A DNA stretch of 64,000 nucleotides, from positions 252,093,956-252,157,955 of the forward strand of contig NC_081824.1 of assembly GCF_030867095.1 (NCBI RefSeq). The letters run 5' to 3'. Under the pieces are notes generated by a model. It was not told the DNA's origin, searched no databases, and saw only the letters and a list, made by a program, of their open reading frames with translations. Positions 6,983 through 34,381 of the stretch are shown in pieces. The DNA is from Alligator mississippiensis (Eukaryota; Chordata; Crocodylia; Alligatoridae). Each line of letters opens with the position of its first letter. The stretch's first letter is position 1. A program made the position numbers and the translations under genes.

Positions 6983-8897
6983 TTCATAGTTTCATAGTAG
7001 CTAGGGTCAGGGGGGACCTGATCAGATCATCTAGCCTGACCCCCTGCCACGGGCAAGAATGAATGCTGGGTTCACAAGACCCCAGACAGGTGATCATCCA
7101 ACCTCCTCCTGAATTTGCCCAAGGAAGGGGCGAGGACCACTTCCCTGGGAAGTTGTTTCCAGATTCTGGCCACCCTAACTGTAAAATATTGCCTCCTGAT
7201 CTCTAACCTAAACCTATTCTCCATCAGCTTATTACCACTGTTCCTTGTCACCCCAGGTGGTGCTGGGGAGAAAAGGGCTCTGCCTATTTGCTGTTGATCC
7301 CCCCTGATGAGTTTGTAGGCAGCCACCCAGTCCCCCCTCCGCCTCCTCTTGCTGAGGCTGAATAGGTCCAGGTACTTCAGTCTCTCCTTGTAGGGCCTGT
7401 CCTGCCGCCCTCTCACCAAGTGGGTGGCCCTCCTCTGAACCCTCTCCAGGCTGGCCACATCCTTTTTAAAGTGTGGCACCCAGTACTGCACGCAGTACTC
7501 CAATTGCGGCCTGACCAAAGTCGCGTAGAGGGGGGAGTATCACCTTTCTGGACTGGCTTGAGATGCATCTTCGGATGCATGACAAGGTATGGCTAGCCTT
7601 GCTGGCTGCGGTCTGGCATTGGCAGCTCATGTTTATCTTGGAGTCAATAATGACTCCAAGATCCCTTTCTGCCTCTCTGCTTTCAAGAGGGAAACTCCCC
7701 AGCCTGTATGTATGCTGTGGATTCCTTCTCCCAAGGTGCAGCACCCTGCATTTGTCTATGTTGAATCCCATCCTATTCTCATCTGCCCACTTTTGTAGTC
7801 TGTCTAAATCTAGTTGCAGCCTCTCTCTCCCTTCAAGTGTGTCCACCTTGCCCCACATCTTAGTGTCATCAGCAAACTTGGACAGCGTGCTTTCCACCCC
7901 CTCCTCCAAGTCGCTGATGAAGATGTTAAACAGTGCGGGCCCAAGGACCGAGCCCTGAGGGACCCCACTGCTCACATCTCACCAGGTTGAGTACAACCCG
8001 TCTACCATTACTCTCTGGGTGTGCCCCACCAGCCAATTTTTTACCCATCCAACTGTCCAGGCATCAATGCCATAGTCGCCTAATTTATTGATGAGGATGG
8101 GGTGAGAGACAGTGTCAAAGGCCTTCTTAAAGTCTAGAAAGACTACGTCCACAGCGACACCATCATCCAAGGATTTAGTTCCTTGGTCATAAAAAGCAAT
8201 CAGGTTGCTCAGGCAGGACCTGACTTTGATGAACCCATGCTGATTGCCCCTGAGCGTGATCTCCCCTGCTGGCCCCCACAGATGTGCTCCTTGCTGATTC
8301 TCTCCAAGAACTTCCCGAGCACCGAGGTGAGGCTTACAGGCCTATAGTTACTTGGGTCCTCCTTCCTCCCTGTCTAAAAAATTGGGATCACATTAGCCAG
8401 TTTCCAATCCCCCTGCACCTGGCCAGATGATCACGAATGCTCATACAGCTGGGCCAAGGGCTCTGCGATGACCCCTGTCAGCTCCCTCAACACCCTTGGG
8501 TGGAGGGCATCTGGACCTGCAGATTTAAAAGTGTCTAGCCCTTCCAGAAGATCCCTAACTACATCTGCGCTGACTGAAGGCCTGACAGAGCTATCCCCGA
8601 GATTGTCCCTATTTCTGGTAGGTGGGATGTCCCGGTCCCTGTTCAAGAAAACAGAGGCAAAGAAACTGTTAAAAATATCAGCTTTCTCATCTGGCATAGC
8701 CACAAGATTACCATTTGAGTCTTGCAGGGGCCCTACATTGCCTGGTGCCCTCTTCTTGTTCCCAGTGTACTTGAAAAAGGACTTTTTGTTGTCCTTAATC
8801 CTGGACGCTAGCCTGACCTCCATCTCTACCTTGGCCTTCCTAATAGCCCTCCTACACTCCTGGGCCAAGGAGGAGTACTCCTCCTTGGTGATAGCTC
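6983..8897 (-). mobile_element. CR1 LINE copy A, 5'-truncated
   Basis: Reverse-strand CR1 retrotransposon that copies itself by target-primed reverse transcription. Its 3' end is at the two octamers TTCATAG TTTCATAG (6983-7000). Read from 8897 downward it shows the linker (ITKEEYSSLAQECRRAIRKAK), the start of the reverse transcriptase (KSAGPDALHPRVLREL), motif A (VVFLDFKKAFDTVSH, about 8130), motif B (SGVPQGSVLGP, about 7960), the catalytic FADDTK (about 7860) and the thumb region (RPQLEYCVQYW, then ERVQRRATHLVRG) to the ORF end near 7072. The endonuclease domain is missing. Reading shifts frame at least twice (near 8430-8170 and near 7500), so it is dead. Its 5' end abuts copy B at 8897. Confidence 0.9.
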
Positions 8898-10875
8898 CTC
8901 CTTCCAGAACTGGATGCAGTACTCCAACTGCAGCCTGACCAATGATGCATAGAGGGGGAGGATCACCTCCTTGGACCTGCTCGTGATGCATCTAGGGATG
9001 CATGACAAAGTGCGGTTAGCCTTCCTGACCGTGTCCCCACATTGTCGGCCCATGTTCATCTTTAAATCAGTTATGACTCCAAGATCCTTTTCTGCCTCTG
9101 TGCTGACAAGAAGGGAGTTCCCCAGCCTGTAGGTATGCTGCTGATTCTTACTGCCCAGGTGCAGCACCTTGCACTTGTCAGTGTCGAAACCCATCCTATT
9201 TTCATCCACCCACCTCTGTAACCTGTTGAGATCTAGTTGTAGCCTCTCTCTCTCTTCTAGCATGCCCACTTCTCCCCACATCTTAGTGTCATCTGTGAAC
9301 TTGAACAAGGTGCTTTTTACCCCCTCATCCAAATCACCGATGAAGATATTGCACAGTTCAGGCCCGAGGACTGAGCCCTGCGGAACCCCACTGTCCATGT
9401 CCCTCCAGGTTGAAAATGACCCCTCCACCACCACTCTCTGGGTGCGGCCCTCCAGCCAATTTCCGACCCATCTGACTGTGTAGGTGTCGACACCACAGAT
9501 GCCTAATTTTTTAATGAGGATGGGGTGAGAGACAGTGTCGAAGGCCTTCCTAAAGTCCAGGAAGACTACGTCCACTGCGACACCTGCATCTAAGGCTTTT
9601 GTGACCTGGTCATAGAAGGCCACCAGGTTGGTCTGACAGGACCTGCCTCTAATGAACCCATGTTGGTTGTCCCTAAGCATACACTCCCCTGCTGGCCCCT
9701 CGCAGATGTGCTCCTAGATAATTTTCTCAAAGAGCTTCTCCAGGACCAAGGTAAGACTAACGGGCCTATAGTTTCCTGGGTCCTCCTTCCTCCCTTTTTT
9801 GAAAGTGGGGACCACACTGACCCTTTTCCAGTTGTCAGGCACCTCGCCAGAGCACTAGGAGTGCTTGTAAAGTTGTGCCAGGGGTCCTGCAATGACCTCT
9901 ACCAGTTCTCTAAGCAATCTGGGGTGGAGGTCATCAGGACCTGCTGATTTGAACACGTCCAGTCCCAGCAGAAGTTCCCTGACTAGGTCCCCACTGACCC
10001 TGGGCCTGGCTGTGCCTCTCCTAAGTCTGTCCGGAATCCCAGTGAGGGGGGGATGCCTCGGTCTCTGCTCAGAAAAATGGAAGCAAAGAATCTGTTAAAG
10101 AGATTAGCTTTGTCATCTGGTGCTACCACCAGATTACCAAGCATGTTCTGCAGAGGCCTCACATTATTTGGCATCTTCTTTTTACCCCCTATGTATTTAA
10201 AAAAGGATTTCTTGTTATCTTTGATCCAGGTTGCTAGTCCCAGTTCCATCTCTGCCTTAGCCTTTGTAATAGCACCCCTATACTCTCAAGCCAAGGAGGT
10301 ATAATACTCTTTGGTGATGGCCCCTCTCTTCCATTGGGTGTACGCCTCCTTTTTGGCTTTGAGGCATTCGTGGATGCTTTTGGTGAGCCATGGGAGCTTT
10401 TGAGCACTCTTGCCCCCTTTGATCCGCGTGGGGATTGTCACGCTTTGGGCTTGGAGGATCGTCTTCTTAAGGAATGACCACTTGTCTTGGACTCCCAACT
10501 CCCCTCCCCCCTGGGACCTCAATGCCTCCCTCACTAGTCTCCTTACCTCATTGAAATCCGCCCTCCTGAAGTCCAGGGCTGTTGCCTTGCTGCAGGCCTT
10601 TGACACCCTGCACTGGATGGTGAATTCGAGTAGGCGATGATCGCTATTGCCCAGGTGGTCAAGCACCCGCAGTCCCCTCACCAGGTCATCGCCTGTGGCC
10701 AGGACCAGGTCCAACAAGGCATTTCCCCTGGTGGGACTGTGCACCTCCTGGGTTAGGTGGAGGTCCTGTAACTTGGCTAGGAACCTACGTGAGCGGTCAG
10801 ACCTGGCAGTGCAATCTTCTTGACTGTCTCTGGTATTCAGGCCCTGCAGGACTTCTCTGACTACCTGGATCACTT
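8898..10875 (-). mobile_element. CR1 LINE copy B, truncated at both ends
   Basis: Second reverse-strand CR1, upstream of copy A in the same orientation. From about 10873 it encodes the C-terminal part of the APE-type endonuclease (LLDLVLATGDDLV, then NSDHRLLEFTI), the linker (LPWLTKSIHECLKAKKEAY), and reverse transcriptase motif A (VVFLDFRKAFDTVSH, near 9560), motif B (SGVPQGSVLGPELCN, near 9390) and a catalytic box reading FTDDTK where FADDTK is usual (near 9290). It stops at LEYCIQFW near 8898, where copy A begins, so its own 3' end and tail are absent. The longest open stretches are 195 and 284 residues, with frame breaks near 10270, 9950 and 9700. The 5' flank (10876-10925) looks like the local minisatellite. 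Confidence 0.88.
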
Positions 10876-13850: not shown

Positions 13851-14689
13851 TTCATAGGTTAGTGTTATAGGGCACCTTGCTGGCCTTTAGTGGTCCTGCT
13901 AGCTGCTGTCCTATTTTTGGACTCTCCTTTCATGCCTTGATGGGAGAAAAGAAGAAAAGAATGTACCAAAAAGGGAACAGCCACCCCATGTATGATGATA
14001 GATACCTGGCATGCTGACCTCCATTGCGGGGCTCCCCCACCCCTCATACCCTGTCCATGCCTGACAAACTCAAGTCTCAGAGATTTTGTTCTTTTGGTGG
14101 CTGTGACCCCTTCATCCAGCTTGCAGTTTCAGCACGTTTGTTCTGCTGTCAATTCCCTGTGACCTCAGCAGGGAAGCAGTTCACTCCCACATCCTCGAGT
14201 GACCCACAGCTGGGTCCTCAGGAGTTCTTACAGGGACCCCTGTCCCCCAGTCATCAACATCTCTCCTTACTACTGCAGATGCTTATGTAGCAGGGGTCAG
14301 AAGGGCATCTTTCTCATCTTTCTTCCGCACCATCACAGGGTGATATAAAGACCTTACCTGCCAAGTAAGTGCGAGGCAGAGGAGCAGTGATGCTGAGGGA
14401 AAAGATGAGAGCCGGGGAAACCCCAGGGCAGGCATGGTCATCCTTTATAAGTGCGTGCCACTGGCACTTAAAAGGGCAGGAACCCCACACCTTAGTCAAA
14501 AGCAGCCTGACCCGAGGAGACCAGAGGACTGAAAATGAGGTCTGGAAGCCCTGGGAGGGGCAAATGGTGGAAGGCAGCCTGCCAACAGCAAACCCACCAA
14601 GGTGGGTCAGAGGAGCCAAACAACTTACCTGTACGTTGGTCCTGGTCACCAGGGACAGAAAATTGGGACCTGACCAGGGACTCTGAACC
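13851..14689. other. Unassigned spacer
   Basis: No gene supported. A stretch around 14330-14690 has a CTTTATAAGTG TATA-like word and could be a decayed promoter-bearing repeat, but I cannot assign it. Confidence 0.35.
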
Positions 14690-14950
14690 TAAAAAAGAAG
14701 AGAGAGAGAGAAGAATCCTGAGGGATAGCCAGCACGGGTTTGTTGCGGGTAGGTCTTGCTTGACCAATCTCATTTCCTTCTACGACCAGGTTACCTTTCA
14801 CCTGGACAAGGGAGAAGAGATTGATGTCATATCTCTTGACTTCAAAAAAAAGTCTTCGATCTGGTATCCCATGATCTCCTCTTGGCAAAACTGGCCAATT
14901 GTGGCATTGGGTCCACCACAATCCGCTGGCTGGGAAATTGGCTTGGTGAC
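14690..14950 (+). mobile_element. CR1 LINE fragment, forward piece of a mosaic
   Basis: Forward-strand reverse transcriptase fragment. It reads RILRDSQHGFVAGRSCLTNL, ISFYDQVT, then a decayed motif A (VISLDFKK), with a frame disturbance around an A-rich run near 14845. It ends where a reverse-strand CR1 piece begins, so the two are tail to tail. Confidence 0.8.
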
Positions 14951-15300
14951 CTCTGATCATGCACGTGGCTTTTCTCTGGACTCTCTCAAGCTTCTCCACA
15001 TCCTTTTTGAATTGTGGAGCCCAAAACTGGGTGCAGTATTCCAGCTGCGGCCTCACCAAGGCTGAGTACAACAGGAGAGTGACGTCCCGGGATTTGCTTG
15101 AGAAGCATCTATGGATGCAAGCCAGTATTTTGGTTGCTTTACTAGCCGCAGCATCATATTGCAGGCTCATGTTCATCTTGTGGTTAATGATGACCCCCAA
15201 GTCTCTTTCTTCCGTAGTGCTAGCCAGTGTAGAACTGTTGAGCCTATGTTGTCTATGCCACCATCAATCTCAATTTGCTTTTATCCCTCCACTTAGACTG
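14951..15300 (-). mobile_element. CR1 LINE fragment, reverse piece of a mosaic
   Basis: Read from 15200 downward this encodes the CR1 thumb region: MGVIINHKMNMS, then LVRPQLEYCTQFWAPQFKKD and LERVQRKATCMIRG. It faces the forward fragment at 14690-14950. This tail-to-tail order is not the head-to-head order that twin priming gives, so I infer two insertions or a later inversion. A PLE pair is inserted just beyond its far end at 15360. Confidence 0.82.
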
Positions 15301-15359
15301 TTTGCAACCCACATGGTTGCCCAACTGTCCCTTCATAAGGCAGTGACACTTTCCAGTGT

Positions 15360-15374
15360 TACCTCTTTTATAGG
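15360..15374. repeat. 15-bp target-site duplication, left
   Basis: TACCTCTTTTATAGG, identical to 16997-17011. It bounds the whole inverted PLE pair. Confidence 0.85.
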
Positions 15375-15481
15375 GGTGTAGGTTGTAGCTGTGTTGGTCT
15401 AAGGACATAGGCAGACAAGGTTCCTTGGGTGAATTTGATATCTTTTATTAGACCAACCCAAATAGTTGGAGAATAGTTATT

Positions 15482-15520
15482 AAACAAGCTTTCGGGTTCA
15501 AAAACCCTTTGTCGGGCTAA
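15482..15520 (-). ncRNA. Hammerhead-ribozyme-like core, decayed copy
   Basis: On the reverse strand the order is CCGACAA (CUGANGA expected), hairpin GGGTTTTTGAACCC, then GAAA and GCTTG. It matches the better copy at 16885-16935 but has two changes in the first core box. Self-cleaving hammerheads are known in PLE tails. Confidence 0.45.
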
Positions 15521-15604
15521 GGAAGCTTCAGCAGTTGGTGCTCTTCATCAGTGCTCTTCCTGGATGGAATGAAAAGTAAAGAAGCCAGGGGCTGGGCTGG
15601 GGAG

Positions 15605-16640
15605 TCAGTTGTCAGGCAGATTGTAATGTATCAAAAATCCAATGTCTATATTTAGTCCATGATCTCTAGTATCCAGGAGGTTGATGAAATGGAGCTCATA
15701 GGCTCGTCTCTGGGAAGTGTTGTGTAAGTTTCCCTTGAGGATCAGGATGGAGAGATTGGAGAGAGAGTGGCCCTCCTGTGAGAAATGTGCCCCCACCGGT
15801 AATTGGGTATTCCTGTCTTTGATAGATTTCCGGTGTGCGTTCATTCTGGTGCTCAGTTGTTGTTTGGTCTCTCCTACATATTTTCCATCAGGGCATTTGG
15901 TGCATTGGATGAGGTATATTACATTTCTGGAGGTGCAGCTGTAAGATCCAGGGATGCTGATGGCTCTGTTGTGGGGTGTAGTAATAGTGGGGGTGGTGGA
16001 GACGTGTTGGCAGGTCTTGCATTTCTTGTCATGGCACGGTCTGGATCCTTTTGGTGTGTTCTGGGCTTGAGGAAGTTTGCTTCTGGTGATGAGGTTGGTG
16101 AGGTTCGGTGCTTGTCTGAAGGCTAGGATGGGTGGCTCTGGGAAGATCTTTTTAAGAATAGGGTCTCTTTCTAGTATGGGTTGCAGTTGTTTGAGGATTT
16201 TTTGTACAGGTTCAAGGGAGGGGTGATACGTCATAACCAGCGGTGTGCGATTTGAGGGCGGGGGGGGGGGGGGGGGTGTTCTGTACTGCAGCAGTTCTTC
16301 ACGTGGTGTCCAGGTGGCTCTTCCAAACATGCGATCTACCTCTCTGGAGGAGTGTCCCTGTTGGGTGAAAGCCTTTTTAAGATTGGTGAGGTGGCGATCC
16401 CGGGTGTTCTTTTCAGTACAAATGCGGTGGTATCTGAGGGCTTGGCTGTATATCACAGATTTTTTGGTGTGTTTAGGGTGATTGCTGGTTCTGTGCAGAT
16501 ATGTATGTTGGTCTGTGGGTTTCTTGTATACTGTGGTCTGTATTTTAATATTCTGGATATTGATCATCGTGTCTAAAAAGGAGATGCTGGTGCTGGAGTA
16601 TTCTAGAGAAAGTTGGATGGAGGGATGGTGATTGTTAAAT
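15605..16640 (-). CDS. PLE polyprotein C-terminal part with GIY-YIG endonuclease
   Basis: An open stretch of roughly 345 element-derived residues ending at 15605. Near its start FLDTMINIQN and VYKKPTDQHTYLH mark the end of the reverse transcriptase and its C-terminal extension. KKIFPEPPILAFRQAPNL and a cysteine cluster (CHDKKCKTCQH) mark the linker. VIYLIQCTKCPDGKYVGETK followed by QQLSTRMNAHRKSI is the GIY-YIG endonuclease, with the YLI and YVG elements and the arginine of R-MNAH visible. EGHSLSNLSILIL and a terminal HYNLPDN close it. A poly-C/G run encodes seven prolines in a row in the linker. The first ~20 residues of the open frame upstream of 16640 are antisense of the other arm and not real. 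Confidence 0.82.
16260..16276. repeat. Poly-G tract inside PLE coding region
   Basis: Run of about 17 G on the plus strand; on the coding strand it gives a proline string. Confidence 0.9.
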
Positions 16641-16643
16641 TGT

Positions 16644-16996
16644 GAGGGCCACTCTCTCTCCAATCTCTCAGTCCTGATCCTCAAAGGAAACTTACACAAC
16701 ACTTCCCAGAGACGAGCCTATGAGCTCCATTTCGTCAACCTCCTGGATACTAGAGATCATGGACTAAATATAGACATTGGATATATGACACATTATAATC
16801 TGCCTGACAACTGACTCCCCAGCCCAGCCTCTGGCTTCTTTACTTTTCATTCCATCCAGGAAGAGCACACACCAACTGCTGCAGCGTGCTTAGCCTGACG
16901 AAGGGTTTTTGAACCCGAAAGCTTGCTTAATAACTATTCTCCAGCTATTTGGGTTGGTCTAATAAAAGATATCAAATTCACCCAAGGAACCTTGTC
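16644..16996 (+). mobile_element. Penelope-like element, short arm
   Basis: Forward-strand copy of only the last part of a PLE: EGHSLSNLSVLILKGNLHN through LLDTRDHGLNIDIG and HYNLPDN (stop at 16812-16814), then the tail with TTGGTCTAATAAAAGATATC. It is the inverted counterpart of 15375-15720 and differs from it at scattered sites (for example V for I in LSVLIL), so the arms are related but not identical copies. It ends at CCTTGTC, short of the last ~35 bp that the left arm has. Confidence 0.85.
16885..16935 (+). ncRNA. Hammerhead-ribozyme-like core in PLE tail
   Basis: CTGACGA (16895-16901) is followed by a hairpin with five perfect base pairs (GGGTT 16903-16907 with AACCC 16912-16916, loop TTTG), then GAAA (16917-16920), then GCTTGC, which can form only a very short stem III, then TT. 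These are the conserved boxes CUGANGA - stem II - GAAA - stem III - UH in the right order. Pairing for stem I is not evident to me, so activity is uncertain. Very short stem III is a known trait of PLE hammerheads. Confidence 0.6.
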
Positions 16997-17011
16997 TACC
17001 TCTTTTATAGG
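16997..17011. repeat. 15-bp target-site duplication, right
   Basis: TACCTCTTTTATAGG, identical to 15360-15374. Confidence 0.85.
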
Positions 17012-18109
17012 TCATTCTGTTCGGCCCAACCACTTAGCTCTGTCTTTTGCACGGATGACTCCGGATGACTTTGAAACAGCCCACCATGTGAACTGGTGCA
17101 ATAGGCTGCAGCGCAGGTCCTGTGTCCATCTTTGGTAAGTAACTCACTGTAGTTTATTCTCTCAAGCAGGGTTCCCTGTTACGGTTAGTATTCAGGAGTA
17201 CAGACCTGGATGTTCAAAATCCTGACCTGGGAACAACAGACTTTGGTAAGCTGCCATTAGAATACAGAAACAGGCTACATAGAAGCTAGAAAAGGAAGAC
17301 TTGGAATATGCAACATAAAAGCTCAACAGGTAGAGCTCGCAGGATGGGGCAGGGATAAAGGACATAGTAGAGTAATGTGCAGGAACTTGGATGAGAAAAC
17401 TAAGGATGGAAACAGACGTTACCTTTTGTTGTTTTTGTGCCCTATGAAAAACCCAAACCTTCCCTGCCTATAGAGATGCATCTCAGGGATCTTGGTAAGT
17501 GGGGTAGGCTGGGCAAGTACTCTGAGGGCTTGAGGGGCCCAATCTCACACAGGAATTCTCAGGGTGCAGGTAGGGCCAGACCCCTGAACTCCTGAGAGAA
17601 CATGTCACCCAAAGTCCCACAGCATCAACAAGCAGGACAATGGGCAGTATGTGTTTTGCCCACTGAAGCAGATCAGCTGTGCTGGAACACATCCCAGAAC
17701 AGCTGATCTGCTTCATTTGGCAATTCCTGTTTCTGCCCCTAGACACTGGCATAGGAAAACAGGAAGCAGTAAACTTAGCTACAGGTACATGGAAACATGG
17801 ACCTGGAGTTGCAGGGGCTACAACCACAAAAATACAAAACTGGATTCAAAACTAGGGATATTGGAACTGAGACCTGGATAATTAATACAGGGAAAACAGA
17901 TCAGGATTAAAATAAACATATGGAGGCATATGACATAAAACCAACCCACAGCGCTGTACTCTCAGGCACAGGAACATAAAAATATAGAGTTGCATGCTTT
18001 GAAGCTTCAGCTGGGCAAAACAGACTGGGAGACTCAAAGGGCAGAACATGGGGAAAAACCCACTGCCAGGCACAAATGCTGTAAATCCAACGTGCAGGCT
18101 CTGGAACTG
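17012..18109. other. Spacer with weak minisatellite words and a hairpin
   Basis: No gene supported. Minisatellite words (GTACATGGAAACATGGACCTGGA near 17785, similar near 17195-17420) are scattered. A perfect inverted repeat lies at 17664-17715. Confidence 0.45.
17664..17715. repeat. Perfect 17-bp inverted repeat
   Basis: TGAAGCAGATCAGCTGT (17664-17680) and its exact reverse complement (17699-17715) with an 18-bp loop. It is not a rho-independent-type terminator context and is too short for a normal miRNA precursor. Confidence 0.8.
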
Positions 18110-30595: not shown

Positions 30596-30748
30596 GGATT
30601 TCACTGAAGAAGAATGTGTTGCATTTGAAAGCTTGTCTAAGTCTATCCCAGCCATGCAGCTTGTCCAGTAAAAGAGATCACCCACAAAAATCCTTGCCTC
30701 TTGCTCATTTCCTGGACCATCATGGCTACAACATCACTCCAACACTAC
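30596..30748 (+). mobile_element. Penelope-like element tail
   Basis: A hammerhead-like core is followed by the PLE tail words GTCCAGTAAAAGAGATCACC, AAAAATCCTTGCCTCTT and CCTGGACCATCATGGCTACA. The same tail appears reversed at 37224-37320. No coding part is present. Confidence 0.65.
30600..30645 (+). ncRNA. Hammerhead-like core in PLE tail
   Basis: CTGAAGA (30604-30610), a hairpin AATG-TGTTG-CATT, then TGAAA (30626-30630), then GCTTGTCTAA. Boxes are in hammerhead order with CUGANGA and GAAA intact. Confidence 0.5.
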
Positions 30749-31555: not shown

Positions 31556-32540
31556 ACACACTGCAGAGTAAGAGGAATAGCCACCATGCCCAGCAGCATG
31601 GAAAGCCGGGGGCGGAGCCAGGAGAGGCTTCAACGGAGTCAGCAGCGACGCTGACAGCAGAGCCGGTAGGGAAGCCGGCTGTAACGCTGACAGCAGCACC
31701 GGCAGGGAAACCGGCAGTAACACTGGCAGCAGAGCCAGCTGGAAAGCTGGCAGCGACGTCAGCCGCAGAGGCGGCAGTGAAGTGGGGAGCGACGCTGACA
31801 GAGGGTCTAGCAGCTGCACCCGCAGCAGGACCGGCGGCAGCATCTACGGAGGAACCGGAGGTAGGAGCACAGAGAGCAGCGTTGGGGCAAGCTGGTGCTG
31901 AGATCTAGGAGTGAGCCTGCATGGAAGCCTCGGAGAACAGGTAACAAAGGGGTGTGTCCAACGGGGCCTTGTCAGGCCGCACCAGAGGGCGGCCGAAGAC
32001 CCAAAGTGGGGTTGGACGGTGGACCTTCGAGGCCCGCAGCGGCCTTAGGACGAGGCGGGGACTCAACACCCTAGTGGGGTGAGCTGCCGGGGCTGTGGAA
32101 CCCGGGCCTGAGGGAATCCATGCGGCCCATAGGCCAGAGGCACCCTTTTGGGCCTCCTGGCCCCATAGCTTAGGGGCCTTAGTTGTCACGGTGGTGGGAT
32201 AGGCACGTCACATCACAGGGTGATTAGTATAGGATGGTCAGGAGTCTAGTTGGAGGGACCACGTCCGAGGACCTCGTGGACCATACACCTGGCCCGAAGA
32301 CTCAGGCACACAGCTGGCAAGCCGTGGGCAGAGGTTGGGGAAGAGTGGAGAACGCCAAAGGGGCCTGAAGATCGGCAACCCAAGGTGGTGAATGGCCAGG
32401 GTGTAGGGGAGGTCGGAGCCCCATGAGTGCCCACCGGGAGGCGCGACAACCCTGGAGGCTCCTCCAAAGGGGAACCCCTCCACTGAAGCAACATTCCAAG
32501 TCGTGGCAGGCGAGTTAAGGGGACGTCAGCAGGGGTAGCC
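31556..32540. other. CpG-rich unassigned insert inside CR1 copy E
   Basis: About 985 bp of GC- and CpG-rich DNA that is unlike its AT-rich surroundings and does not encode the CR1 linker expected here. The first part carries a 36-bp tandem repeat (31648-31827). The rest has many CG dinucleotides and no recognised domain. No clear target duplication is seen, and about 130 codons of CR1 linker are absent, so this is a replacement and not a clean insertion. Candidate origins: a chimeric retrotransposition product, an LTR-type element part, or captured host 5' sequence. Confidence 0.5.
31648..31827 (+). repeat. 36-bp tandem repeat, five units
   Basis: Units begin ACGCTGACAGCAGCACCGGC or close variants. 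The forward frame through all five units is open as a 12-residue repeat of the type TLTAAPAGKPAV. Units 4 and 5 are more diverged. Unrelated in sequence to the AT-richer minisatellite elsewhere in the window. Confidence 0.75.
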
Positions 32541-34381
32541 TGTGGGGTCCGCCCACGAGCCCAGGACAGACACGATCCATAGTCTGGGCTAAGGCCACAC
32601 GGGAGCGCTTAATCGAACGGAGGTGGGCACAGAGTAAAAGGAAGGCCCAGGGTGGAATAGGACCTCTACTAAATAGGCATAAGCAATTAGTGACGGACAG
32701 GGGGGACAAGGCTGAACTCCTCAGTGAGTTCTTTGCCTCAGTGTTCCTAAGCGAGGGGCAAGACAAGGCTTTCACTGGGATTGTAGAGAGGCAGCAGCAG
32801 GATGCCAGACTACCAAGCGTAGACCCTGAGATGGTGCAGAGGCACTTGGAGGAACTGGATGCATTTAAGTCAGCAGGCCCGGATGAGCTCCATCTGAGGG
32901 TACTGAAGGCACTGGCTGACGTCATTGCACAGCCACTGGCGGGAATATTTGAACACTCATGGCGCACAGGCCAGGTCCTGGAAGACTGGAAAAGGGCCAG
33001 TGTGGTCCCCATTTTCAAGGGGAGGAAGGAGGACCCAGACAACTATAGGCCAGTCAGTCTCACCTCTATCCTTGGTAAAGTCTTTGAAAAAACTATCAAG
33101 GCTCACATTTGCGAGAGCCTGGCAGGTAAAATTATGCTGAGGGGAAACCAGCACGGGTTTGTAGCAGGTAGATCATGCTTGACTAATCTAGTCTCTTTTT
33201 ATGACCAGGTTACAAAACACCTGGACGCAGGAGTAGGGGTTGATGTCGTATACTTAGACTTCAGGAAGGCCTTTGATACAGTATCCCACACCATACTGGT
33301 CAACAAGTTAAGAGGCTGTGACTTGGATGACTACATGGCCCGGTGGGTGGCGAATTGGCTAGAAGGTCACACCCAGAGAGTGATGGTGGATGGGTCGGTA
33401 TTGACCTGGAAGGGTGTAGGCAATGGGGTCCCGCAGGGCTTGGTCCTAGGACCGATACTCTTCAATGTCTTCATCAGCGACTTGGACGAGGGAGTGAAGT
33501 GTACTCTGTCCAAGTTTGCGGATGACACAAAACTGTGGGGAGAAGTGGACACGCCGGAGGGCAGGGAACAACTGCAAGCAGACCTGGACAGGTTGGACAA
33601 GTGGGCAGAAAACAACAGAATGCAGTTCAACAAGGAGAAATGCAAAGTGCTGCACCTAGGGAGGAAAAATGTCCAGCATACCTACTGCCTAGGGAATGAC
33701 CTGCTTGGTGGCACGGAATCGGAAAGGGATCTTGGAGTCCTAGTGGACTCCAAGATGAACATGAGTCGGCAGTGTGACCAAGTCATCAGAAAAGCTAATG
33801 GCACTTTATCGTGCATCAGCAGATGTATGACGAACAGAACCAGGGAGGTGATATTTCCCCTCTATCGGGCGCTGGTCAGACCACAGTTGGAATACTGCGT
33901 GCAGTTTTGGGCGCTGCACTTCAAGAGGGATGTAGATAACCTGGAGAGGGTCCAGAGAAGGGCCACTCGTATGGTTAAGGGCTTGCAGGCCAAGCCCTAT
34001 GAGGAGAGACTGGGGCACCTGGACCTCTTCAGCCTCCTTGTAGCTGCCTATAAGTTCATCATGAGGGCACAGAAGGGAATTGGTGAGGCTTTACTTACCA
34101 AGGTGCCCCTGGGGATTACAAGAAATAATGGCCACAAGCTAGCAGAGAGCAGATTTAGACTGGACATTAGGAAGAACTTCTTCACAGTTCGAGTGGCCAA
34201 GGTCTGGAACGGGCTCCCAAGGGAGGTGGTGCTCTCCCCTACCCTGGGGGTCTTCAAGAGGAGGTTAGATAACCATCTAGCTGGGGTCATCTAGACCCAG
34301 CACTCTTTCCTGCCTATGCAGGGGGTCAGACTCGATGATCTATTAGGGTGCCTTCCGACCCTAAAGTCTATGAATCTATGA
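32541..34381 (+). mobile_element. CR1 LINE copy E, reverse transcriptase to 3' end
   Basis: Resumes at AKATRERLIERRWAQSKRKA and continues to the CR1 3' end, with a ~85-bp 3' untranslated region and the terminal octamers TCTATGAATCTATGAA. It is the best preserved LINE in the window. Confidence 0.93.
32690..34294 (+). CDS. CR1 ORF2 reverse transcriptase region, open
   Basis: Uninterrupted for 534 codons and open further upstream to about 32541, so the position of the first codon is arbitrary. Reverse transcriptase motifs are in order: KSAGPDELHLRVLKAL (about residue 63), SVVPIFKGRKEDPDNYRPVS (about 105), motif A VVYLDFRKAFDTVSH (about 185), motif B GNGVPQGLVLGPILFN (about 245), catalytic FADDTKLWG (about 276), then the thumb (RPQLEYCVQFW, about 403) and a C-terminal NFFTVRVAKVWNGLPREVV. 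Motif B has L where S is usual (PQGSVLGP). All catalytic aspartates are present. The upstream endonuclease half is separated by the GC-rich insert, so the element as a whole is not functional. Confidence 0.92.
   Translation: MTDRGDKAELLSEFFASVFLSEGQDKAFTGIVERQQQDARLPSVDPEMVQRHLEELDAFKSAGPDELHLRVLKALADVIAQPLAGIFEHSWRTGQVLEDWKRASVVPIFKGRKEDPDNYRPVSLTSILGKVFEKTIKAHICESLAGKIMLRGNQHGFVAGRSCLTNLVSFYDQVTKHLDAGVGVDVVYLDFRKAFDTVSHTILVNKLRGCDLDDYMARWVANWLEGHTQRVMVDGSVLTWKGVGNGVPQGLVLGPILFNVFISDLDEGVKCTLSKFADDTKLWGEVDTPEGREQLQADLDRLDKWAENNRMQFNKEKCKVLHLGRKNVQHTYCLGNDLLGGTESERDLGVLVDSKMNMSRQCDQVIRKANGTLSCISRCMTNRTREVIFPLYRALVRPQLEYCVQFWALHFKRDVDNLERVQRRATRMVKGLQAKPYEERLGHLDLFSLLVAAYKFIMRAQKGIGEALLTKVPLGITRNNGHKLAESRFRLDIRKNFFTVRVAKVWNGLPREVVLSPTLGVFKRRLDNHLAGVI

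Follow-up and report, generated by a model that had tools for sequence, protein, structure and literature searches.

The analyzed stretch of Alligator mississippiensis DNA (64,000 nucleotides, referred to here as the window) contains a real hammerhead fold motif at positions 16885 to 16934 of the forward strand. We consider it probable that this motif, which belongs to a Penelope-like element (PLE) of a group that we call family 1, is a minimal type I hammerhead in the PLE pseudo-LTR (pLTR) that cuts slowly after U17, either as two copies or with the aid of protein. Judged from the sequence, it is a new case of a hammerhead kind already reported in PLEs, with its stem I identified and its fold supported by evolutionary change.

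Read along the forward strand, the motif consists of the catalytic core CTGACGA (CUGACGA in RNA, C3 to A9) at 16895-16901, an A at 16902, the two strands of stem II, GGGTT at 16903-16907 and AACCC at 16912-16916, enclosing the loop TTTG (16908-16911), GAAA (G12 to A15.1) at 16917-16920, GCTT at 16921-16924 and GCTTAA at 16925-16930. The original prediction that CTGACGA, a 5-bp GGGTT/AACCC hairpin and GAAA follow each other at hammerhead spacing is therefore borne out by the letters at 16895-16920, and both C3-U-G-A-N-G-A9 and G12-A-A-A15.1 are intact in this copy. The single A at 16902 (A10), located at the junction between A9 and stem II, was absent from that description; stem II does not close the core directly after A9, since this A precedes its first pair. 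The layout was also searched for in the whole window, as CTGANGA followed by at most one base, a hairpin of at least 4 bp and GAAA. Two hits were found, both on the forward strand, one at 16895 (5 bp) and another at 30604 (6 bp). In 100 first-order Markov sequences with the length and dinucleotide make-up of the window, the mean number of hits on both strands was 0.11 with at least 5 bp and 0.3 with at least 4 bp.

In the type I register, C3 is at 16895, so that the base immediately following H17 has to be the partner of C16894. A one-pair stem III (A16920-U16923) capping GC makes U16924 the H17 base and pairs G16925 with C16894. Stem I then continues with a G-C and an A-U pair and is followed by a T-T mismatch. 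Its 5' strand is thus AGC at 16892-16894 (positions 2.3 to 2.1) and its 3' strand GCU at 16925-16927 (positions 1.1 to 1.3), corresponding to alignment columns 8-10 and 42-44. Stem I had been considered not obvious, but it is present and was formed in the unconstrained minimum-energy fold of 16885-16934, with pair probabilities of 0.74, 0.74 and 0.60. In the same fold, the pairs of stem II had probabilities of 0.68-0.93, and one further G-C pair spanned the core. A possible outer pair of stem I beyond the mismatch, T16890-A16929, was weak (probability 0.056). Because the covariation of stem I fixes the register, the cut is predicted to fall after 16924, between U17 and 16925. The segment from GAAA to U17 (16917-16924: GAAA, G, C, U16.1 and U17) includes an AGCU palindrome.

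The motif lies in a PLE insertion at about 15375..16996, which, according to the sequence and the tail alignment, has two 3' tails that face outward in a head-to-head arrangement. The insertion is flanked by a target site duplication, with the left copy TACCTCTTTTATAGG at 15360..15374 and the same 15 letters at 16997..17011 (both on the forward strand), although the tails may share the ends of this duplication. An alignment of the two tails spans about 350 columns. The motif at 16885-16934 is in the right tail, and the left tail extends about 36 bases beyond the right one, ending in CTACAACCTACACCCC. The insertion therefore has inverted pLTRs, a target site duplication and the optional tail extension, and the portion of PMC3846280 available to us reports the same three features for PLEs, the optional tail there measuring 31 bp. 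According to excerpts of PMC11167929, reverse transcription of an Anolis PLE starts at two adjacent sites, which delimit such a tail, and the protein of this element cleaves and extends both DNA strands; two outward tails would follow from the latter activity. The tails of the window insertion and of two sister loci (L070 and L071) stop at either of two points, which are separated by about 36-40 bases, as predicted by the two start sites of the Anolis element.

The insertion also contains an open frame on the reverse strand (15605..16717), which encodes what appears to be the C-terminal part of a PLE protein, and its first codons sit inside the inverted tail copy. By eye, this frame contains letters that we take to be a GIY-YIG motif; a Pfam search with the translated piece gave no match, GIY-YIG included. 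The window copy is without the reverse transcriptase part. Among the two sister ORF pieces, a reverse transcriptase domain (PF00078, E 1.5e-11) was found in that of L071 and none in that of L070. The pLTR location of the motif is indicated by a tail that follows the end of an ORF and precedes an ORF start, and in one copy (L114) the ATG lies about 119 nt after the predicted cut. The reading of the motif as a hammerhead core in a PLE tail is supported by its position in the pLTR, by pairing that was kept in three PLE families and by models built without family 1 (see below).

Several other features were observed in and around the insertion. A run of 17 Gs occupies 16260-16276, inside the PLE open frame of the other strand. 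Open frames that by eye resemble pieces of CR1-type LINE reverse transcriptase are found at 7072-9713, 14646-15263 and 32519-34294, and the PLE adjoins one of these. A second hairpin, CCAGC...GTTGG, is located at 16941-16957, directly before CTAATAAAAGATATCA. Most of the tails seen in one set of loci (L151-L170) carry a CCAAC...GTTGG hairpin before CTAATAAAAGATATCA, and 838 exact copies of this family 3 type form were found.

A DNA search with the tail gave 40 scored places, and together with loci found earlier, 42 distinct tails were aligned. Since 25 of these (L011-L038) were letter-identical over the central 100 columns, this family, family 1, appears from its sequence to be young and recently active. 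The genome contains 3,150 exact family 1 motifs (CTGANGA, with the remainder exact) and 197 exact family 3 motifs, and the reversed-pattern control for both gave 0. Among the first 100 of the 3,150 matches, neighbors less than 6 kb apart were head to head in 10 cases, in direct orientation in 1 and tail to tail in 0. Family 2, an older one, is represented in the window by the tail motif at 30604..30634 (forward strand), CUGAAGA-A-GAAUG..CAUUU-GAAAGCUU. In this copy the upstream letters diverge from family 2, so that stem I lacks its 5' strand. The stretch from 30604 to 30740 looks like a second, older PLE tail, with the likeness to family 2 starting at hammerhead C3. In the other 39 of 40 places, family 2 showed 82-89% identity over the main piece, and its majority sequence is AGAC-CTGAAGA-A-GAATG...CATTT-GAAAGCTT-GTCT. 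Ten of 30 family 2 loci (L041, L042, L044, L047, L049, L052, L055, L056, L065 and L069) have a second, inverted tail within about 50 bases, as a head-to-head fold-back element; one more inverted tail pair, further apart, is found at L053. Family 3 was exposed by a pattern search that gave 51 matches (reversed pattern, 0), and its majority sequence is TATGC-CTGAAGA-A-GGGTG...TGCCC-GAAAGCTT-GCAAAG. The majorities of families 2 and 3 retain C3 to A9 and GAAA, and those of all three families share A10, AGCU and U17.

A covariance-model search had been named as a check of the motif, and its outcome depended on the model used. With Rfam release 15, no hammerhead match was obtained at gathering scores in the whole window or in 8 loci, nor, with E-values up to 10, over 15000-17500 (RF00163 included) or in 16 of 35 pattern loci; the motif therefore falls short of the Rfam cut-off for hammerhead type I, and the matches listed in these searches belonged to other families, all below their cut-offs. 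When RF00163 was searched genome-wide, scoring 73 of 253,571 first-look candidates, a single match was obtained, at 23.2 bits (E 3.43), below the cut-off. By eye, this match had no exact CUGANGA, and it was taken as chance; matches below the cut-off were also obtained in 11 of 14 control genomes. The models built from other PLE tail families, in contrast, recognized the motif. R1 gave 38.3 bits (E 1.1e-7) for 16885-16934 on the forward strand, and the stricter R2 gave 38.0 bits (E 5.3e-8). In two rows of R1 (L080 and L091), the letters 5' of the core resemble those of family 1; R2 has no family 1 row and leaves these two out, with the same result. The pattern locus L093, used in one of the alignments below (A1), is absent from both. 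These scores blend sequence and structure, with the shared core sequence supplying part of the window score, and the E-values are rough according to the tool's own warning. The family 2 copy at 30604 scored 31.4 bits with R1 (E 7e-6). The same motif was also recognized in the other tail of the window insertion, at 15475-15525 on the reverse strand (R1, 24.7 bits, E 3.9e-4; R2, 24.8 bits, E 2.2e-4), where the core has decayed to CCGACAA and is no longer intact. The next-best match in the window outside these three motifs had 15.1 bits (E 0.11). The two models were further used to scan 20 tails taken from the first 100 of the 838 exact matches, all on one contig, to a query made of the family 3 type tail motif outside the ribozyme. 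The motif was found at the same place in 16 of the 20, which demonstrates presence rather than independence, as the models were trained on related families, and CTGANGA and GAAA were both unchanged in 5 of the 20.

Pairing across copies was quantified in two alignments. A1 (45 rows) holds 35 of the 51 pattern matches, and the pattern demanded CTGANGA, CGAAAC and AATAAAAGAT, which left no freedom in the core, at C11.1 or at the C that follows GAAA and also accounts for the frequent CCTT behind GAAA; the 6 family 2 rows of A1 other than the window copy were likewise required to have CTGANGA and GAAA. A4 (35 rows) was made without a forced core from 16 tail-only loci, 3 family 1 rows and 16 family 2 rows. 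The tail-only loci were those left after four without a model hit (L158, L159, L160 and L162) were dropped; as they were picked by a model containing the structure, their count leans towards structure. For family 2, of 18 copies matching from the first base of the query, 2 were dropped (second places in L065 and L053), and so was the copy at 30604. In A4, 87.5% of 383 cells were paired, a level reached by 0 of 500 shuffles, compared with 73.6% after shuffling. The covariation score was 0.570, compared with 0.306 for the shuffled alignments and 0.057-0.236 when the partner was slid. Two of the five measures were unremarkable in A4, namely how many pairs had changed on both sides (reached by 50 of 500 shuffles) and how many pair types occurred (129 of 500). 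A1 agreed, with 84.5% of 438 cells paired and a score of 0.529 versus 0.282, and RNAalifold run unaided on A1 predicted stem II only, not stem I.

The original prediction had counted consistent pairing across PLE copies as support, and this is what A4 showed: in three families, both strands of stems I and II have changed and the pairing has survived. In stem II, 94.8% of the cells were paired, with both-side changes at 4 of 5 pairs, so that the stem was not left broken without compensation in the tail copies; in stem I, 78.9% were paired, with both-side changes at 3 of 5 pairs. At stem II column pairs 20/32 and 21/31, AU and GC were about equally frequent. Column pair 8/44 was GC in 12 rows, UA in 9 and AU in 7, and column pair 9/43 was GC in 15, AU in 14 and GU in 4. 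Rows within a family are not independent, and the true changes amount to a handful of events among the three families; families were assigned by a rule of ours on stem letters, which the pair counts do not use. By this rule A4 has eight family 1 rows, most of them reading CTGACAA, as CpG decay following insertion would produce. That a hairpin and a core came together by chance is scarcely credible. The motif is short, and copies within a family share it by descent, but two layouts were found in the window against 0.11 expected, models without family 1 gave E-values of 5e-8 to 1e-7, and pairs have changed across three families.

The same alignment bears on how the letters GCTTGC should be read. 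In the window copy, the AGC and GCT of AGC TT GCT are complementary, so that stem III could be a 3-bp AGC/GCT hairpin with a TT loop and stem I be absent; the two inner pairs of this hairpin stand in 33 and 31 of the 35 A4 rows. Its outer A-U position, however, forms a standard pair of any kind in just 10 of 35 rows, and the outer A-U pair of stem III is the one that a hammerhead needs most. The same 3' column covaries with the stem I strand instead, being paired in 30 of 35 rows, mainly as GC, UA and AU. This hairpin is therefore disfavored, and we regard the reading as very unlikely. GCTTGC, which the original prediction had noted after GAAA, is divided between two elements: its first GC caps stem III (A-GC-U), and the second GC, with the following T, is the 3' strand of stem I. 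Stem III is then a single A-U pair, paired in 33 of the 35 A4 rows, and the AGCU palindrome could pair two copies. The suggestion that the motif acts as a dimer fared unevenly. AGCU is present in all three family majorities, but in the two-copy fold of 16885-16934 (-23.7 versus 2 x -8.6 kcal/mol), computed with an energy model ignorant of the hammerhead core, the copies were joined via the stem II arms and not through AGCU, and the fold therefore does not support the dimer form.

Compared with the canonical type I hammerhead (RF00163), the alligator motif shares the CUGANGA core, stem II, GAAA and A15.1-U16.1, but is without a real stem III. It is closer to the minimal type I hammerheads of PLEs (Cervera and de la Pena 2014; Lunse et al. 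2017), which are alike in type I order and pLTR location. According to the available parts of PMC7761336 and PMC6466107, such minimal hammerheads lack helix III and possibly work as dimers; the latter, on the authority of Lunse et al. 2017, states that cleavage by two copies requires tandem motifs whose stem III loop is palindromic, and an excerpt of PMC7229834 describes minimal hammerhead motifs in tandem in axolotl PLEs. The near-absent stem III, the palindromic cap and the paired copies are also alike, whereas the alligator majorities have the extra A after A9 and U17, and families 1 and 3 have a mismatch inside stem I. An extra unpaired A between A9 and stem II is shared with the plus-strand hammerhead of chrysanthemum chlorotic mottle viroid, which differs in being a viroid ribozyme with loop-loop contacts. 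As the viroid A lowers the trans-cleaving rate moderately in the accessible text of PMC3705267, A10 would be expected to slow cutting. The Poseidon PLE PAc of Anolis carolinensis, as far as described in the text of PMC11167929 at hand, likewise has hammerhead stems I and II in a pLTR near the ORF start and tails that end at one of two points, but its ORF starts at stem II, not about 119 nt downstream of the cut as in L114. The PAc hammerhead at the pLTR-ORF junction cut RNA only when protein was added.

We also mapped the 5' ends of insertions relative to the predicted cut. The sample was drawn from the 40 best matches to a query at the ORF start; the 39 left after removal of the query's own locus were each fetched with 380 bases upstream, and they are the copies closest to the query and not a random set. 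Five copies ran to the edge of the fetched stretch, giving 34 mapped ends. These scattered from -228 to +120 around the predicted cut, with 1 of 34 within 3 nt of it, compared with about 0.7 expected if the ends were even. Six of the 34 all fell at -107, which is an alignment break in a CCCAG repeat, and another placement puts five at -110 to -154. With ends this scattered and only one within 3 nt, there is no visible sign that cleavage fixes where most of these insertions start, and the measured 5' ends speak against cleavage defining insert starts.

It is possible, though in our judgment doubtful, that the fold is kept for binding of the PLE protein or for placing the reverse transcription template, with cutting incidental or lost. 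The scattered 5' ends favor this explanation, as do A10, U17 and the one-pair stem III in all three majorities. In the sections of PMC11167929 available, moreover, mutating the Anolis hammerhead left in vitro insertion activity unchanged, and the hammerhead cut coincided with neither the start nor the end of any RNA-seq read. Two observations count against our main reading: the sister tail in the same insertion has a broken core, and core and GAAA are both intact in just 13 of the 35 A4 rows. Against the binding or placement explanation, stems alone would suffice for binding, yet the family 2 and 3 majorities and the 3,150 family 1 copies keep the core and GAAA. The shortest active Anolis template, as given in the same sections of PMC11167929, runs from +20 and depends on the initial 172 nt of the ORF, the greater part of which is downstream of the ribozyme.

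We therefore retain the minimal type I hammerhead as our reading, with weak, conditional cutting as the likeliest behavior to be predicted. U17 is expected to slow cutting. When RNA is read through tandem or inverted copies, two motifs may pair via AGCU; alternatively, the protein of the element may help a single motif to fold. The RNA would then be cut slowly after U17, and transcripts could thereby be trimmed to unit length. A more speculative proposal, which we hold to be rather unlikely, is that selection keeps the ribozyme weak through A10, U17 and a one-pair stem III with AGCU, so that uncut RNA serves as the insertion template and cutting is triggered when two tails meet or protein binds. 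If this were true, such a switch could be put to the test in a living vertebrate, given the thousands of exact copies. The existence of hammerheads in PLEs is established; for their role in the life cycle, the alligator provides a young family in which thousands of motifs are exact, along with two older families with compensated stems, and these natural variants could show whether cutting, two-copy pairing or help from protein is selected.
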